Source: Christensenellaceae bacterium (GTDB taxonomy: Bacteria; Bacillota; Clostridia; Christensenellales; Christensenellaceae). Taken from it: a DNA stretch of 64,000 nt. The notes under the pieces were generated by a model. The model saw only the letters and a program-made list of their open reading frames with translations. It was not told the origin of the DNA and searched no databases. The translations under genes and the position numbers were made by a program. Positions 1,548 to 12,464 of the stretch are shown in pieces (the first letter of the stretch is position 1; the number at the start of each line of letters is the position of its first letter). The DNA is taken from contig AP025580.1 in NCBI GenBank assembly GCA_022846035.1, positions 1,302,001-1,366,000 of the forward strand, read 5' to 3'.

Positions 1548-2879
1548 CTATCTGGCGGCATTGCAGGCAATCTGGATCGCATCCCATACCCCTGCATATG
1601 GCGGTGAATATATCAGGTCGGCCATCCCCAGTTGTTTGGTTGTCATCCCCGCATTGATCGCCACCACAAATACGTCCGTCCTCAGCGCCGCTCCGTCCTT
1701 GCCCGCAAGCTGCGCACCCAATATCCGCATACTTGGTTTTTCATAAATCACTTTGATATAAAGCGGCTCCATTCCCGGAAAATACGCGGGATGGTTGCGA
1801 CCCTCGATCGTCACGCTTCCTACCGTATAACCCATATCAATGGCCTCGCGTTCCCCAAGGCCCGTACGACCAAGCTGGACATCGCACACCTTGAGCGCGG
1901 CTGAACTCGTCATGCCAACGAACACTTCATGGCCGCCGCAAATATTGTTTCCTGCAATCCGGCCGCATTTATTTGCAGCCGTTCCCAACGGTAAATATAC
2001 ATTCTTTTGTTTCACAAGATCGTACACCATTGCGCAATCGCCGGCAGCAAAAACATCCGGACTGGATGTCCGCATTTCGCGGTCCACGATCACAGCGCCG
2101 TTCCTTGCAAGCGATACGTCCGTTCCCTCAAGGAACTGCGTGTTCGGGCGCACACCGGCTGAAACCACCACCAGGTCGGCAACATAACGGCCTTTGTCTG
2201 TCAGGACTTCGTTGACGCTTTCCGTTCCTCTGAATTCAATCACTTTCTCGCCGGTATGAACCTCGATTCCCTTATCCTGCAGCTCCTTTACCGCGACAGC
2301 CGTAATCTCGTCGTCAAAGGGAGCAAGAATTTTATCCGCCGCTTCAATGCATACGACATTTTTTTTCAGGGCGTGCATCGCCTCCACGACCTCAATACCG
2401 ATGTATCCGCCGCCCACCACGACAACGTTCCGGATACCGTAGCCTGCGACGGCTTCCTTAAGCAGCAGGCCGTCCTCCATCGTCTTCAACACATAAACGC
2501 CTTTTTTATCTATCCCGAGAATCGGCGGCTTGATCGCTGCCGCTCCGGTTCCGATCATCAGCTTATCGTAAGTGTCCTTAAAGGTTTCGCCGCTCTGCAA
2601 ATTTTTGACGGTTACAACCTTGTCGCGCGTATCCACGGCAATGATTTCATGATGCAAAAACGTATTGATGTCCATCTTTTCAAACGTCGCGCGCGTGCGC
2701 GCGATCAGTTTGTCAGGGTCTTCATTATATCCTGCCACATAATAGGAAAGGCCGCATGCTCCATACGAAAGATAACCGCCTTTTTCGTAGACATTGATCC
2801 GCGCGTCTTTCTGTATCCTTATAATCTTAGAAGCGGCGGACATTCCCGCCGCCACCCCGCCTGCTACAATTACTTTCAC
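1548..2879 (-). CDS. CoA-disulfide reductase / NADH oxidase-like flavoprotein
   Basis: This 443-residue pyridine nucleotide-disulfide oxidoreductase belongs to the CoADR/Nox/NADH-peroxidase group. It has an N-terminal FAD-binding GGVAAGMSAA motif, a single redox cysteine (Cys42 in LSYGACGLSYYVAG), and a second dinucleotide fold (VVVVGGGYIGIE, about 153-164) for NAD(P)H. A FAD-contacting FAAGDCA motif and a C-terminal dimerisation domain ending in YSPPYAGVWDAI complete it. One Cys at this position fits CoA-disulfide reductase or NADH oxidase and rules out a dithiol reductase. The start is GTG, preceded by AAAGGGG. It lies 33 bases downstream of the aldolase gene in the same transcript, so it may recycle NAD or CoA thiol for the aldehyde branch; that link is inference. 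Confidence 0.85.
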   Translation of the reverse strand: MKVIVAGGVAAGMSAASKIIRIQKDARINVYEKGGYLSYGACGLSYYVAGYNEDPDKLIARTRATFEKMDINTFLHHEIIAVDTRDKVVTVKNLQSGETFKDTYDKLMIGTGAAAIKPPILGIDKKGVYVLKTMEDGLLLKEAVAGYGIRNVVVVGGGYIGIEVVEAMHALKKNVVCIEAADKILAPFDDEITAVAVKELQDKGIEVHTGEKVIEFRGTESVNEVLTDKGRYVADLVVVSAGVRPNTQFLEGTDVSLARNGAVIVDREMRTSSPDVFAAGDCAMVYDLVKQKNVYLPLGTAANKCGRIAGNNICGGHEVFVGMTSSAALKVCDVQLGRTGLGEREAIDMGYTVGSVTIEGRNHPAYFPGMEPLYIKVIYEKPSMRILGAQLAGKDGAALRTDVFVVAINAGMTTKQLGMADLIYSPPYAGVWDAIQIACNAAR

Positions 2880-2912: not shown

Positions 2913-3788
2913 TTACCGCAGTTTTTCCAAAATTTCCTTGGTAATCTGTTCAACCAAATAATCGATTTCAGAGCTTGTCGGCTGGGATTCCGTCTGTGAC
3001 AGCGCGTTTCCGCCATATACCGTTTTGCTCGTGTTTCCGCCGCGTTGGCAGCCGCCCAACGGACCGGATGCGGGAATGACATCTCTGTCGTTTGTCGTCT
3101 GGTCCGCGCACGCCGGAACGCCGCCGCCACGGATCCCCAGCTTGGCCCGTGTTTCCAGGAGCGGTGCAATCTGCTCACAGCTCAATGGGTTTGCCTTACC
3201 GATAATATTTCCCGTATACATCATGATAGTCGCGTAATATTCCACAGATTCCAGCCTGTAGAAAGCCTGCATGAGACTCGTTCCCCATGTAAGCGCGCCG
3301 TGGTTTGCCAACAGGACCGCGTTATAGTCGCGGCAGAAAGGCGCAATGGAATCAGGAACCTCCTGCGTGCCCGGCGTTGCGTATTTCGCAACCGGAACGC
3401 TTCCAAGCCCCATAATCGCCTCCGTTAAAATTGGCTGGTCAAGACTGATGCCCGCGATCGCAAAAGACGTCGCTACCGGCGGATGCGCATGCGTGACAGC
3501 CATGATCTCCGGATTTTCTTTATAAGCCCGAATATGCATCTTTACTTCGGACGAGGGTTTATATTTGCTGTCATCGGACAGTACTTTCCCATCAAGCGTC
3601 ATCTTCACGATCATGTCCTGATCCATAAAGCCTTTTGATACGCCCGTCGGAGTAGTCAGAATAACGTCCGGAGCGATTTTGCAACTGATATTACCATCGT
3701 TCGCCGCCACAAAGCCTTTCTGATACATCCTTTTTCCGATTTCAAGAATCTGTTCCTTTGCTTCAAAAATGGTAGGAAATTTCGTCAT
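2913..3788 (-). CDS. Class II (FucA-type) sugar-phosphate aldolase with microcompartment-targeting-like tail
   Basis: The catalytic domain (about 1-218) belongs to the L-fuculose-1-phosphate aldolase / MtnB-like zinc family. Zinc and catalytic residues are visible as Glu81, His100 and His102 (in THAHPP) and His163 (in ANHGAL). The family cleaves a ketose 1-phosphate into dihydroxyacetone phosphate and a short aldehyde. The protein is 291 residues, against about 215 for plain FucA. The extra part is a Gly/Thr/Ser-rich linker (about 221-271) and a C-terminal amphipathic helix (about 273-291, EIDYLVEQITKEILEKL). That layout matches encapsulation peptides of bacterial microcompartment cargo enzymes. 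The start has GAGG eight bases upstream. The gene is divergent from a DeoR repressor and is followed by the CoADR-like gene. The substrate is not determined. Confidence 0.85.
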   Translation of the reverse strand: MTKFPTIFEAKEQILEIGKRMYQKGFVAANDGNISCKIAPDVILTTPTGVSKGFMDQDMIVKMTLDGKVLSDDSKYKPSSEVKMHIRAYKENPEIMAVTHAHPPVATSFAIAGISLDQPILTEAIMGLGSVPVAKYATPGTQEVPDSIAPFCRDYNAVLLANHGALTWGTSLMQAFYRLESVEYYATIMMYTGNIIGKANPLSCEQIAPLLETRAKLGIRGGGVPACADQTTNDRDVIPASGPLGGCQRGGNTSKTVYGGNALSQTESQPTSSEIDYLVEQITKEILEKLR

Positions 3789-4051: not shown

Positions 4052-4122
4052 GAGAATGTAGGATCGGTAATATTCCATTCAGGTGTATCAACATAAATGA
4101 CAAATCGTACAGGAGAATGCCC

Positions 4123-4887
4123 ATGCTTGCATTAACCAGGAAAAATCAGATTCGGGAATTGATTCTTGAAAAAAAGAACGTTACCGTATCAGAACTTGCC
4201 AAATTGTTTTCCGTCACCGAAGAAACGATACGCCGCGATTTGAAATCCCTTGAAGAAGCCGGCGTTCTCATCCGCACCTATGGCGGCGCGTTCATTCAGG
4301 ATGGCGTTGTAAACGACATCAAGATGGCCCTTCGCGAAAATATTTTGGTTCCCAACAAACAAAAAATCGCAAAGAAATGCGCCGAATTTATTCATAACGG
4401 CGATACCATTACCCTAGATGCTTCCACCACGGCTTTCCATATCTGTAATGAGATCAGGCATATGCGGCTTACCGTACTGACGGATTCGCTAAAAATCATC
4501 AACTACCTGGCTGAGTATGATAACATCAATCTGATTGCAACCGGCGGTACGCTGCAACACAACTACCATAGCTTTATCGGTAAGATGGCCCGGCAGACCA
4601 TCCGTGAATATTATGTCGATAAAGTCTTTGTTTCATGCCGCTCGCTTGATATGACGCATGGTATCACCGAGGCCAGCGAAGATATTGCTGCTGTTCGTAA
4701 ACTCTTGATTGAGCGCGCCAACAAAGTTTTTTTGATCGCTGATCATTCAAAATTCAATAAGGTGTCTTTCGTGAGTATCTGCGGTTTTGATAAAATTGAT
4801 TCTATCGTGGTGGATGAACCGCTCTCTTCCGACTGGCATGAGTTTTTAGAGGAGCACGGGATCGACCTTTATGAATGTGAAGCATAA
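4123..4887 (+). CDS. DeoR-family transcriptional repressor (first copy)
   Basis: This is a sugar-metabolism repressor of about 254 residues. The N-terminal winged helix (about 1-55) holds the family signature ending in EETIRRDLKSLE. The C-terminal DeoRC/sugar-phosphate sensor domain shows DASTTAFHI, TGGTLQ and the ADHSKF motif. DeoR-family proteins are usually released from DNA by a phosphorylated sugar. I place the start at the second ATG because AGGAG (4111-4115) lies seven bases before it and only one base before the ATG at 4117. The gene is divergent from the aldolase operon and convergent with mtnA, so those are its likely targets. It is the only long plus-strand protein gene I accept in the window. 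Confidence 0.9.
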   Translation: MLALTRKNQIRELILEKKNVTVSELAKLFSVTEETIRRDLKSLEEAGVLIRTYGGAFIQDGVVNDIKMALRENILVPNKQKIAKKCAEFIHNGDTITLDASTTAFHICNEIRHMRLTVLTDSLKIINYLAEYDNINLIATGGTLQHNYHSFIGKMARQTIREYYVDKVFVSCRSLDMTHGITEASEDIAAVRKLLIERANKVFLIADHSKFNKVSFVSICGFDKIDSIVVDEPLSSDWHEFLEEHGIDLYECEA

Positions 4888-5007: not shown

Positions 5008-6093
5008 TTATTTCTTAGCAGCAGCTTCTTTTTTACTGAATATCTCTTGTAAAGATTCTTCAAACGGCGCGTACGCAATCCCATATTCCGTGACGATTCC
5101 CGTAATATTTTGCGCGTCCGTTACGTCGAACGCGGGATTGAATACTTTGACTCCTTTGGGAGCCATTCGCTTTTCATACCACATTTCCGTTACTTCCTCC
5201 GCCGGACGCAATTCAATGTGAATATCGTCTCCGCTGGTACAATTCATGTCTATTGTGGAGGTCGGCGCGCATACATAGAAAGGAATCTTGTAATACTTCG
5301 CGGCCAGCGCAACATAGGAAGTTCCGATCTTGTTTGCCGTGTCGCCGTTCCTCGCTACGCGGTCACAGCCTACGAATACAGCGTCTATCCAACCTTTTTT
5401 CATGACGGACGGAGCCATATTGTCGCAAATCAACGTTGTGTCTATGCCCGATTCATAAAGCTCGTACGCAGTCAGGCGCGCCCCCTGCAAAAGCGGTCGC
5501 GTCTCGTCACAGAACACATGGAAGTTATAGCCTTTCTCGTGTCCCAGATACATAGGCGCCGTCGCGGTCCCATATTTTGATGTTGCGAGCTGTCCTGCAT
5601 TACAATGTGTAAGCAGGCCCATTTCCGGCTTTAAGAGCGACAGTCCGTATTCGCCGATCATCTTGCATACCCATGTGTCTTCCTCTTTGATCCTTACAGC
5701 TTCCTGATGCAAAATCTCTTTGATTTCCGCGATGGACTTATTTTTGTTTGCTTTCACGACCTCGTCCATACGGTTTAAGGCCCATGAAAGATTGACCGCC
5801 GTCGGACGTGCGGAATCCAGGTACTTCTTTGCTTCGGCGAACTGCTTATAAAAATCATCAAAACTGTCGGCCTCTATTTCCTTTGCCGCCAGATAAATGC
5901 CAATCCCCGCCGCAACGCCAATGGCCGGAGCGCCTCTTACCTGAAGCAGATAAATCGCGTCCCAAATACTCTTCTGGTCTTTCAGATGCAGGATTTCCGT
6001 GTGATACGGGAGCTGCGTCTGATCGATGATGACAAGCGCGCTGTTTTCATCGTCAAGCGCCACGGTATCGTAATCCATAATACTTTGTTTCAT
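5008..6093 (-). CDS. mtnA: S-methyl-5-thioribose-1-phosphate isomerase family protein
   Basis: This aldose-ketose isomerase of the MtnA/eIF2B-alpha family converts 5-methylthioribose 1-phosphate, and in some bacteria 5-deoxyribose 1-phosphate, to the ribulose form. Family landmarks are RGAPAIG (53-59), [11 protein letters not shown] with catalytic Cys164, and [17 protein letters not shown] with catalytic Asp244. The start is the ATG with GAGGT nine bases upstream; an upstream in-frame ATG would overlap the -10 box. No mtnK, mtnN or mtnBCDE gene is seen, so the classical methionine salvage pathway is not encoded here. FucA-type aldolases nearby suggest the shorter DHAP shunt, in which MtnA feeds a class II aldolase; this is inference. 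Ribose-1,5-bisphosphate isomerase is a less likely alternative. Confidence 0.88.
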
Positions 6094-6142
6094 TCTTCGC
6101 TTACCTCGCCTAATAGAGATTTCCACTGATTCATGTAAAAAT

Positions 6143-6171
6143 ATCATATCTCATAGATTAACAAAAATCAA
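6143..6171 (-). promoter_or_regulatory. Predicted promoter of mtnA
   Basis: On the minus strand TTGATT (6166-6171) and TATGAT (6143-6148) are spaced by 17 bases, about 50 bases before the chosen mtnA start. A separate promoter means mtnA is not simply read through from the upstream sensor kinase gene. Confidence 0.6.
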
Positions 6172-6185
6172 ACACCTGTTAATGA

Positions 6186-6205
6186 CAAAAACACCCTTTC
6201 GGGTG
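6186..6205 (-). terminator. Intrinsic terminator after the Bce-like two-component operon
   Basis: On the minus strand CACCC and GGGTG form a short tight hairpin with a GAAA-type loop, followed by five U residues. It lies about 185 bases after the kinase stop. Those 185 bases contain no gene that I recognise, only the repeat copy at 6314-6328. Confidence 0.65.
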
Positions 6206-6313
6206 CAAACGGCAGACAGCACCGTGCTTTGCACTCTGCCAATATACAAGAAATTCTACTCAGTGATAAACCTTACGGTAACGCGGACTTTGCCATATTC
6301 TCGCATTGTTGCG

Positions 6314-6328
6314 CGTTTATGTTGTTTT
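6314..6328 (+). repeat. 15-base intergenic repeat, copy 2
   Basis: This is an exact copy of the 15-mer at 3831-3845. Most of it (TTATGTTGTTT) is repeated immediately afterwards, giving a short tandem. It lies about 145 bases upstream of the mtnA -35 box. Confidence 0.35.
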
Positions 6329-6389
6329 ATGTTGTTTCTTCGTTATTTTGCTTCGGTTGATAAATGTTCAATTGTCAACATATATCGCT

Positions 6390-10350: not shown

Positions 10351-11832
10351 CTATTTCAATTTTGTTTGCTGCAAAAATGTCTGATACTGCCTGCCCATAT
10401 CCCCGCCGCACATGGGAATATATTCTTTGATCTCGCATGATCGTGCGCATACTTCCCTCGCTTCGCCCAGGTCCTTGAGCAATCCTCTGCCGATCCATTG
10501 TGTAAGCAGATTTCCGATCCCTGTCGCATCCGCCGGTCCGGCAAATATCTTTTTTCCAGTAAAATCAGCTGTCAGTTGATTTAGGAAATCATTCCGGCTT
10601 CCGCCGCCGATGATATGTATCCCGTCATACGAACGCTTTGTAAGCGTTTCGATTTTTTCCACCACATAGCGGTATTTGCATGCGAGGCTTTGCGTCACAA
10701 TACGCGCAAGCTCCGCATCGTTTTGAGGCGCATATCCGTTTTCCCTGCACAGCTCCGCTACAACCGCAGGCATATCCGTAGGCTCGAACAACCGTTCGTC
10801 ATCCGGATCAATGAATATGTTGTCGCAGCGCACCTGGCTCGCCATTTCCGCCAAGCCGGCAAAAGTATATTCCTTTCCCTGCTGCTTCCAGATACGTACG
10901 CACTCCTGCAGGATCCACAGCCCCATGACATTGCGGATATAGCGCACACGGTCCTGTACGCCGCCCTCGTTTCCAAATCCGGCTTCCATACTTTCTCGGG
11001 TCATGATCGGCTTCTTGAGTTCCGCCCCAACGAGCGACCAGGTTCCGCTGGAAATAAACAGAAAATCATCGTCGCCCCGCGCAGGTGTCGCCGCTACCGC
11101 AGACGCCGTATCATGCGCGCCTACCGCGTAAATATCCGCCGAGACCGTGTTTAGCTCGCTGCATATTTCGCGTGAAACCCGCCCGACCTTATCTCCCGGG
11201 CGTACGACCGGTGAAAATAAGTCTTGCCGCAGGCCATAGGCATGGAAAATATCGTCGTCCCATTTGTTTTCGAGAATGTTATATAAATTTGTCACACTGG
11301 CGATCGTATATTCCGTATACTTTTTCGCTCCAAGCAGATAGGAAAGATAATCCGGCACAAACAGCAGGTCCTCTGCTATCTTTACTATATCGCCGTCCTG
11401 TTCCATTGCCGCCAGAAGATGATAGCACGTTTCGAAGCGTGCAAATTGCTGCCCCGTTTTCTGATATACTTCAAACTTCGGCATCAGTTTATCAGCGCGC
11501 TCGATCCAGCCCTCCGTTCTGCTGTCGCGGTAATTACGCGGCGTCTCCAGCATAGTACCGTTCTTTGTAAGCAATGCATAATCGTTACACCAGGAGTCGA
11601 TGGCAACAGACTCTATTTTGCCGTCAAACGCCTTTTGCGCAATTTGGTAGCCCGTTTTGATCTCGTCAAATATCCGCAGGAAATCCCAATACGCCCGTCC
11701 TTTTAAAAGTACGATCCTGTTGGGGAACTTATAGACAGGCGTAAAAGCCGCTTTTCCGTTTTCAAGCGATCCGACAAACAGCTTCCCGCCGCTTCCTCCA
11801 AGGTCGACCGCCAGCGCCAGGTTCTGGTTCAT
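10351..11832 (-). CDS. FGGY-family sugar kinase, L-rhamnulokinase/L-fuculokinase-like
   Basis: This 493-residue kinase most resembles RhaB. It has an N-terminal phosphate-binding motif VDLGGSGGK, a YRDSRT substrate-loop motif, ISSGTWSLVG in the middle, and a C-terminal GGGSRNDFLNQLTAD plus GPADATGIGN motif. RhaB-type enzymes phosphorylate a ketose or deoxyketose at O1, making the substrate of a FucA/RhaD-type aldolase. That is just what the preceding gene encodes, and the two overlap by one base (TGATG). No rhaA or fucI isomerase and no transporter is present in the cluster, so the sugar cannot be named and may reach the pathway already as a ketose. Confidence 0.85.
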   Translation of the reverse strand: MNQNLALAVDLGGSGGKLFVGSLENGKAAFTPVYKFPNRIVLLKGRAYWDFLRIFDEIKTGYQIAQKAFDGKIESVAIDSWCNDYALLTKNGTMLETPRNYRDSRTEGWIERADKLMPKFEVYQKTGQQFARFETCYHLLAAMEQDGDIVKIAEDLLFVPDYLSYLLGAKKYTEYTIASVTNLYNILENKWDDDIFHAYGLRQDLFSPVVRPGDKVGRVSREICSELNTVSADIYAVGAHDTASAVAATPARGDDDFLFISSGTWSLVGAELKKPIMTRESMEAGFGNEGGVQDRVRYIRNVMGLWILQECVRIWKQQGKEYTFAGLAEMASQVRCDNIFIDPDDERLFEPTDMPAVVAELCRENGYAPQNDAELARIVTQSLACKYRYVVEKIETLTKRSYDGIHIIGGGSRNDFLNQLTADFTGKKIFAGPADATGIGNLLTQWIGRGLLKDLGEAREVCARSCEIKEYIPMCGGDMGRQYQTFLQQTKLK

Positions 11833-12464
11833 CAGTCTTCGACTTTTGCCGCCGCCATTCTGACTGCGCTCTCAAAAATATTTGCCATAGCGTCGCATTC
11901 CACGCGTTCTACGATGCTGTATGCCTTATTGAGCGTCGGCCCTGCCGCAACAATACCATGCTGCGGTAAAATGCCTTCCAGGCCCATCTTTTGCGCCCGC
12001 TCGCGGTTTGCCATAAAATATTCGTTTGTTTTAATGGCGAGGTCCTCCGTATAGGCCCATGCCTGATGAATCACGCCGCAGTCGCCCATCTTCATCGTCG
12101 CTTCCGTTACGGAAGGGATCGGTTTACTGAAAGCGGCAAAACACATCGTGAACTGCGGATGCGCATGGATAACTGCTCCAAATTCCGGAAAATTCTTTAA
12201 AAGCAGCGTGTGCATCCTGCTTTCGCGGGAAAGTTTCTGCGTTCCCTCAATAATATTGCCCTCATAATCGATGATCATCAGGTCTTCCGGATTGATACGG
12301 CAACGGTGATGTTCAGACATCATCGACGGCGTGATCAATACGCGGTTGTCCGCAACGCGCATGGAAACATTTCCTCCCGCCGCGTTGGTAAGCTTGCGGT
12401 CGTACAGGTATTTGATGATTTCTAGCATTTCTTTTCTTTGTTCCATGTAAGACAATTCACACAT
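11832..12464 (-). CDS. Class II (FucA-type) sugar-phosphate aldolase, short form
   Basis: This 210-residue zinc aldolase belongs to the L-fuculose-1-phosphate/L-rhamnulose-1-phosphate family and has a normal length with no tail. Zinc and catalytic residues are Glu81, His100 and His102 (in IHAHPQ) and His169 (in PQHGIV), the same spacing as in the long aldolase at 2913-3788. It probably splits a ketose 1-phosphate made by the adjoining FGGY kinase to DHAP and a short aldehyde such as lactaldehyde. AGGAG lies eight bases before the ATG. It lies 26 bases downstream of the pfkB-type gene and overlaps the FGGY kinase start. Confidence 0.87.
   Translation of the reverse strand: MCELSYMEQRKEMLEIIKYLYDRKLTNAAGGNVSMRVADNRVLITPSMMSEHHRCRINPEDLMIIDYEGNIIEGTQKLSRESRMHTLLLKNFPEFGAVIHAHPQFTMCFAAFSKPIPSVTEATMKMGDCGVIHQAWAYTEDLAIKTNEYFMANRERAQKMGLEGILPQHGIVAAGPTLNKAYSIVERVECDAMANIFESAVRMAAAKVED

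Follow-up and report, generated by a model that had tools for sequence, protein, structure and literature searches.

How does an aldolase that ends like an encapsulated enzyme come to lie in a stretch of DNA with no microcompartment shell gene? The question is raised by a gene (2913..3788, (-) strand) of a Christensenellaceae bacterium (GCA_022846035.1); the window, as we use the term here, is the whole stretch that was analyzed, i.e., 64,000 nt at positions 1,302,001-1,366,000 of the AP025580.1 forward strand. The initial annotation described a FucA-type aldolase with a tail resembling a microcompartment encapsulation peptide (EP), placed it in a fucose/rhamnose context, and left two options: either the shell locus is remote, or the tail is retained because it serves some other interaction. 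Judged from sequence and gene context, it is fairly likely that the enzyme is a DrdA-type aldolase that acts as bacterial microcompartment (BMC) cargo and as a satellite of remote SPU-like shells, with a putative substrate, putative encapsulation, and putative use of DERA-containing shells.

The class II aldolase is intact and carries a disordered linker and a terminal helix

The open reading frame encodes 291 aa with no internal stops, and we assign its product as a class II aldolase of the DrdA/DHAP-shunt kind (probable 5-deoxyribulose-1-phosphate aldolase) with a C-terminal EP. Membership in the class II (FucA-type) family is indicated by Pfam Aldolase_II (PF00596), which matched residues 12-189 with 168 bits. 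Residues E81, H100, H102, and H163 are invariant in 39 relatives and align with the established catalytic Glu and metal-binding His residues of FucA, from which their roles are transferred. In an AlphaFold model based on a 39-sequence alignment, pLDDT was ~90-98 in the core, below 50 for residues 244-267, and 85-92 for a helix spanning residues 272-290, in agreement with the annotated combination of FucA-type aldolase and terminal amphipathic helix. We considered an EP to be an amphipathic helix of 15-20 residues that a flexible linker joins to a terminus, and the aldolase has this architecture, with the linker at residues 244-267 (codons at 2988..3059, (-) strand; length differing among orthologues) and the helix at 272-290. 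The EP itself, i.e., the codons of the terminal amphipathic helix (~residues 273-290, EIDYLVEQITKEILEKL), was mapped to 2919..2972 on the (-) strand according to the AlphaFold model, a motif shared by 41 tails, and the match to host EPs described below. Since the preceding segment (218-243; GGxPxC...TN.xDV) is conserved and modeled, the truly disordered linker comprises ~25-30 residues; the Gly/Thr/Ser linker of the initial annotation is present, but at this length rather than at ~50 residues. The hydrophobic moment of the tail was 0.55, relative to a control mean of 0.26, with 5 of 111 being as high. A terminal helix of the same pattern is kept in all six close family orthologues compared, with linkers of variable length; a seventh and more distant orthologue (G006) has a longer, atypical tail. 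The proposed grounds for rejection, namely, a tail that is absent or nonhelical in close homologues, do not apply to these close orthologues, in which it is present and helical.

Immediately downstream of the aldolase gene (33 bp) lies a gene for a CoA-disulfide reductase-type flavoprotein (1548..2879, (-) strand; NF007123, 532 bits), orthologues of which are conserved partners present in most tailed loci. Divergent from the aldolase is a DeoR-family regulator gene (4117..4887, (+) strand; DeoRC, 169.8 bits), found at the same place in many tailed loci, followed by a gene for an MtnA/DrdI-type methylthioribose-1-phosphate (5-deoxyribose-1-phosphate) isomerase (5008..6147, (-) strand; TIGR00512, 420.6 bits, cutoff 279), and mtnA adjoins the aldolase gene in nearly all orthologous loci. 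The other FucA-type aldolase of the window (11832-12464) ends at residue 210 and is tail-less, as had been stated; a rhamnulokinase-like gene (10351-11832) pairs with it. Likewise, no shell gene was found in the window by profile searches, and BLAST gave no match there to shell proteins, BMC-type aldehyde dehydrogenase (AldDH), Fe- or Zn-alcohol dehydrogenase, PduL, MtnK, or CoA-transferase. The combination that characterizes PVM-like BMCs, i.e., shell genes in the same locus as a class II aldolase, is therefore missing from the window, whereas it is present in the orthologous loci.

Two complete shell loci elsewhere on the chromosome

The genome is a single contig of 2,768,446 bp (99.8% complete), in which we found eight PF00936 and seven PF03319 matches, all outside the window and grouped in two loci: locus A at about 85-98 kb, ~1.2 Mb from the window, and locus B at about 1,797-1,808 kb, 0.49 Mb from it. 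This genome-wide search, suggested as a check by the initial annotation, yielded two complete shell loci; a lack of shell proteins, which would have spoken against an EP, is thus not the case, and the option of a remote shell locus on the same chromosome is borne out. Each locus contains BMC-H, BMC-T, BMC-P, PduL, a PduS/RnfC-like protein, a EutE-type AldDH (628 and 622 bits), and DERA. Genes for DeoC-type aldolases (PF01791/DERA) were recognized at 93591, 97454, and, with a weaker match, 1800635, and the DERAs of the two loci carry N-terminal EP-like helices. As BLAST with an RpiB sequence from an SPU locus detected no RpiB (PF02502) in L016-L019, we refer to loci A and B as SPU-like rather than as SPU proper. 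Both shell loci also encode an unnamed protein of 226-231 aa with an EP-like N-terminus that is blank in Pfam at 1e-5 (L016:12024-12704 and L019:5664-6359).

The tail matches the encapsulation peptides of its own genome

We compared the last 25 residues of the aldolase with the N-termini of eight cargo proteins encoded in loci A and B, using the mean best 14-mer BLOSUM score. The tail scored 23.0 against these host EPs, whereas 110 other C-termini of the same genome scored 8.1 ± 4.0 and 500 shuffles scored 12.0 ± 2.6, with none of the former and 0/500 of the latter reaching 23.0. The alignment to EPs that had been proposed as a check was therefore better for the tail than for every one of the 110 control C-termini, and its closest host EPs were three DERA peptides (scores of 27-31). 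Over 41 tails, the motif reads I-V-x-x-V-T-x-x-V-L-x-x-L, with three positions hydrophobic in 41/41, and the window aldolase keeps every hydrophobic position of it. In the comparison with the sister genome G005, codons were replaced at 6/20 positions of the tail, 10/28 of the linker, and 15/243 of the core; the tail thus turns over almost as fast as the linker, yet its hydrophobic face is retained, a pattern that falls short of proving selection on the tail. We conclude that the tail is almost certainly an EP by descent, and we lean slightly toward its still being functional in this strain.

Complete loci, satellites, and orphan tails in relatives

A single locus holds the tailed orthologue together with MtnK, MtnA, PduL, AldDH, and shell genes in G073, G086, and another six genomes of the order; a two-subunit CoA transferase, a CoA-disulfide reductase, and a sugar ABC transporter belong to it as well, as does PduS in many of them. 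The operon order in these relatives is aldolase-CoADR-CoA-transferase-ABC-MtnK-MtnA-PduL-BMC-P-AldDH-PduS-BMC-T-BMC-H, and that in named Bacillota is mtnK-mtnA-DeoR-aldolase-AldDH-BMC-H (x2-3)-PduL-BMC-P-CoADR-CoA-transferase. Such loci occur in Paenibacillus, Calidifontibacillus, Salipaludibacillus, Gracilibacillus, Clostridium, Lacrimispora, Anaerocolumna, Proteocatella, Erysipelothrix, and others. The two-subunit CoA transferase (PF01144; L061:5595-7107 and orthologues) is, like the CoA-disulfide-reductase-type flavoprotein, conserved in the BMC loci. A C-terminal motif (ITPLARDAAWELGI) similar to the EP-like N-terminus of the unnamed 226-231-aa protein of loci A and B is apparently fused to PduL in the putative 5-deoxyribose BMC loci (L061:13384-14214).

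IN CHRISTENSENELLA, the aldolase of the sister genome G005 is 89% identical to that of the window and belongs to a cluster of CoA transferase, CoA-disulfide reductase, tailed aldolase, DeoR, MtnA, MtnK, ABC transporter, and BMC-H. Its main shell locus, 195 kb from this cluster, has two AldDHs and PduL, with no signature enzyme recognized inside, and its DERAs are encoded elsewhere and not near that locus. It is G005 that most clearly shows a satellite providing EP-tagged cargo. In the window, the transporter, CoA-transferase, and satellite BMC-H of G005 are not beside the aldolase gene; relative to G005, the junction between mtnA and a histidine kinase gene (6148..6389, no strand) lacks mtnK-ABC transporter-BMC-H at one edge and the main BMC locus at the other. 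Genes that resemble DAHP synthase paralogues, as judged by eye, flank the two G005 regions that the junction lacks, and they might have mediated the rearrangement. We considered whether loci A and B could be the G005 shell locus in a new position and rejected this, as their AldDHs are only 70% and 61% identical to those of G005, compared to 89% for the aldolase. Moreover, mtnK (TIGR01767) is absent genome-wide, so that the cluster lacks the kinase or phosphorylase expected of a DrdA pathway; the only PF01048 protein of the genome is a PNP-type phosphorylase encoded outside the cluster, and it is a guess that this enzyme provides 5-deoxyribose-1-phosphate from 5'-deoxyinosine or 5'-deoxyadenosine. 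With mtnK missing, and with neither locus A nor locus B being an orthologue of the main G005 locus, the aldolase is a shell-less satellite that either has locus A or B as its likely partner or bears a relic tail.

Tails without a matching shell are found in other genomes as well. A PF03319 gene stands immediately ahead of mtnA in three genomes (G002, G003, and G004); the tailed G003 has this one BMC-P vertex gene and no PF00936 gene, and PF00936 is absent from the genome of another tailed locus (L133). In the Bacilli L097, L105, and L108 (with L152, L153, and L154), which have a tailed DrdA-type aldolase, the sole BMC of the genome is xanthine-type. We had considered their remote shells as acetaldehyde shells and dropped this idea for that reason; these genomes are natural cases of orphan or cross-docking EPs and hence counter-examples rather than support. 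The BMC-P gene ahead of mtnA in three Christensenella genomes encodes a long charged C-terminal extension (L164:9509-10090, L166:7647-8222, and L167:9349-10038). In addition, the Christensenella genomes G002 and G004 (L163:5248-10660 and L165:8268-13693) have a BMC locus that encodes two class II aldolases plus a kinase, with no BMC-type AldDH above the cutoff anywhere in either genome.

These comparisons bear directly on a possible, if doubtful, alternative, which is the form that the "kept for another interaction" option now takes: an ancestral 5-deoxyribose shell locus, together with the kinase and transporter, may have been lost by rearrangement at 6148-6389, leaving a cytosolic detoxification enzyme whose tail is unused. 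The absence of mtnK from the genome, the coincidence of the MtnA/histidine-kinase junction with the G005 sites of mtnK-ABC-BMC-H and of the main BMC locus, the persistence of tails in genomes without a matching shell, and the quick amino-acid turnover of the tail would all fit such a relic. However, all hydrophobic positions of the motif are kept, the host-EP match beats every control, and two shell loci for the same aldehyde are present. Docking into the remote shells, which we prefer, has to contend with the same missing kinase, the lack of an adjacent G005-type transporter, CoA-transferase, and BMC-H, and the orphan tails elsewhere.

Gene context points to a 5-deoxypentose rather than to fucose or rhamnose

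Taken together, a class II aldolase, an MtnA-like isomerase, and an MtnK-like kinase make up the drdK-drdI-drdA set, which converts 5-deoxyribose to DHAP and acetaldehyde, the product being acetaldehyde rather than lactaldehyde (PMC6079011), and E. coli with the DHAP-shunt pathway produces acetaldehyde, ethanol, and acetate from 5-deoxyribose anaerobically (PMC10986504). Cleavage by DrdA is thermodynamically unfavorable (Keq about 1e-4; PMC6079011). With respect to this pathway, the aldolase gene is clustered with an MtnA-like isomerase gene (mtnA, 5008-6147), an arrangement kept in relatives, where the kinase is also present (MtnK; TIGR01767, 428 bits). The protein itself is less telling. Among its PDB relatives are the B. 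thuringiensis DrdA structures 6btd/6btg, but FucA and YgbL/OtnC score equally, so that the PDB/fold search was uninformative in choosing among DrdA, FucA, and OtnC; when a tree was built in which B. thuringiensis DrdA, FucA, and OtnC served as outgroups, their branches were too long to place the tailed aldolase. The best NCBIfam match was 3-oxo-tetronate-4-P decarboxylase (130 bits; cutoff 250), with FucA also below its cutoff, and we therefore did not use HMM-based names. As sequence and fold do not separate DrdA from FucA or YgbL/OtnC, we derive the substrate from gene context, according to which the aldolase very probably belongs to a 5-deoxypentose pathway.

It follows from the conserved partners MtnA (420 bits) and, in relatives, MtnK (428 bits) that the fucose/rhamnose context of the initial annotation is probably wrong. 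A fuculose- or rhamnulose-phosphate aldolase whose tail targets a fucose/rhamnose compartment (PVM- or GRM5-type) could account for the equal closeness of fold and sequence to FucA, for the rhamnulokinase-like gene in the window, and for the similar tails of GRM5-type aldolases at ~50% identity, and yet we consider it improbable: the rhamnulokinase goes with the untailed aldolase, both shell loci carry DERA, and the ORF lists for the window and for both shell loci show no recognizable glycyl radical enzyme or activase, those for the shell loci also no fucose or rhamnose isomerase.

Tails and shells co-occur and vary together

We scanned 80 loci of named genomes (40 tailed and 40 untailed), counting shells within the fetched flanks. 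Shell genes were present in the flanks of 29/40 tailed versus 0/40 untailed loci (p = 9e-13) and, at the genome level, in 38/40 versus 2/40 (p = 1e-17). Likewise, in a sample of 395 genomes of the order, shells were found in 26/36 genomes with a close homologue versus 13/359 without one (p = 4e-23), all of these p-values being inflated by kinship. On a tree of the catalytic domain, the tail changes 9 times, and of 5 independent pairs, tail and shell shift jointly in 4.7 and oppositely in none; L082, a locus cut off after PduS, was entered as shell-bearing in this pair test, which is fair with regard to kinship but cannot reach 0.05 with five pairs. Such near-complete co-occurrence across Bacillota and joint variation on the tree make it very improbable that the helix is an oligomerization or partner-binding element unrelated to microcompartments, even though terminal amphipathic helices can mediate many contacts and PF00936 genes are entirely absent from a few tailed genomes.

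A proposed mechanism for a satellite cargo aldolase

In the mechanism that we propose for docking into a remote shell, MtnA, encoded next door, would make the substrate of the aldolase in the cytosol, and the aldolase would cleave 5-deoxyribulose-1-phosphate (probably also 5-methylthioribulose-1-phosphate) to DHAP and acetaldehyde (or methylthioacetaldehyde). With the C-terminal helix docked on the inner face of the shell, the volatile, toxic aldehyde would be set free beside the encapsulated acylating AldDH and PduL, and removal of acetaldehyde would pull an aldol equilibrium that otherwise strongly favors the sugar phosphate. The relatives have the entire pathway and its shell in a single operon; in this genome, the aldolase is a satellite with no shell genes beside it, and it most likely docks into one of the two remote DERA (SPU-like) shells, which are predicted to handle the same aldehyde.

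Relation to known systems

The characterized drdK-drdI-drdA/DHAP-shunt systems of B. thuringiensis and E. coli (PMC6079011 and PMC10986504) share with our locus the class II aldolase and the MtnA-type isomerase, as well as, through the relatives, an MtnK-type kinase and the predicted products DHAP and acetaldehyde. They differ in that no microcompartment has been reported for them, whereas here the aldolase bears an EP and relatives have a shell; in addition, the kinase is absent from this genome. Among microcompartments, the tailed-aldolase loci appear to match the PVM-like BMC loci of Firmicutes as these are described in Axen 2014 (PMC4207490) and Sutter 2021 (PMC8217296). The substrate of PVM-like BMCs has been assumed to be fucose/1,2-propanediol-like (PMC8156839), whereas the linked mtnK and mtnA argue for 5-deoxyribose/methylthioribose. 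Loci A and B, in turn, resemble SPU BMCs in having DERA with an EP, EutE-type AldDH, PduL, a PduS-like protein, and full shell sets; they differ by the lack of a detectable RpiB, and the window aldolase is remote from both. The GRM5/fucosome of C. phytofermentans (PMC3557285) has a related class II aldolase with an EP (~50% identity, similar C-terminal helix), but follows a glycyl radical enzyme route via lactaldehyde and 1,2-propanediol, without MtnA or MtnK. Precedents for single features are offered by Sutter 2021 (PMC8217296): the HO-type BMC has an EP-bearing cargo enzyme remote from the shell, albeit a DeoC aldolase of a different family, and the ACI BMC has a C-terminal EP on a PF00596 aldolase, albeit in a different BMC type and phylum. 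EP-tagged aldolases being already a known kind, the interesting part lies in the reassignment of the substrate.

On balance, it appears probable from gene linkage that PVM-like BMCs are 5-deoxyribose and/or 5-methylthioribose metabolosomes with EP-tagged DrdA, and that the Christensenella aldolase is a satellite cargo of deoxyribose-type shells; such a metabolosome would sequester the acetaldehyde or methylthioacetaldehyde made by the tagged enzyme. Few metabolosome substrates are known, and PVM-like BMCs have an assumed one only, for which the mtnK-mtnA-drdA link provides a concrete candidate. Radical-SAM and polyamine chemistry gives rise to 5-deoxyribose and 5-methylthioribose as by-products. 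An organelle that is widespread in gut and soil, and whose substrate is unproven, would thus probably break down a toxic waste sugar. If so, organelles would be tied to the disposal of a near-universal radical-SAM by-product, and the caging of an aldolase that has an unfavorable equilibrium and a toxic volatile product would be explained. As the cargo gene lies hundreds of kilobases from any shell gene, locus-based catalogues miss such cargo.

Our literature search, with subscription papers outside its scope, found no paper joining a microcompartment with 5-deoxyribose or 5-deoxyribulose, and a 2019 gut survey did not name the 5-deoxyribose pathway (PMC6620236). In Acetobacterium woodii, a methylthioribose kinase gene beside a PduU/PduV pair was called unrelated in 2020 (PMC7593272); this neighborhood may be the same link.
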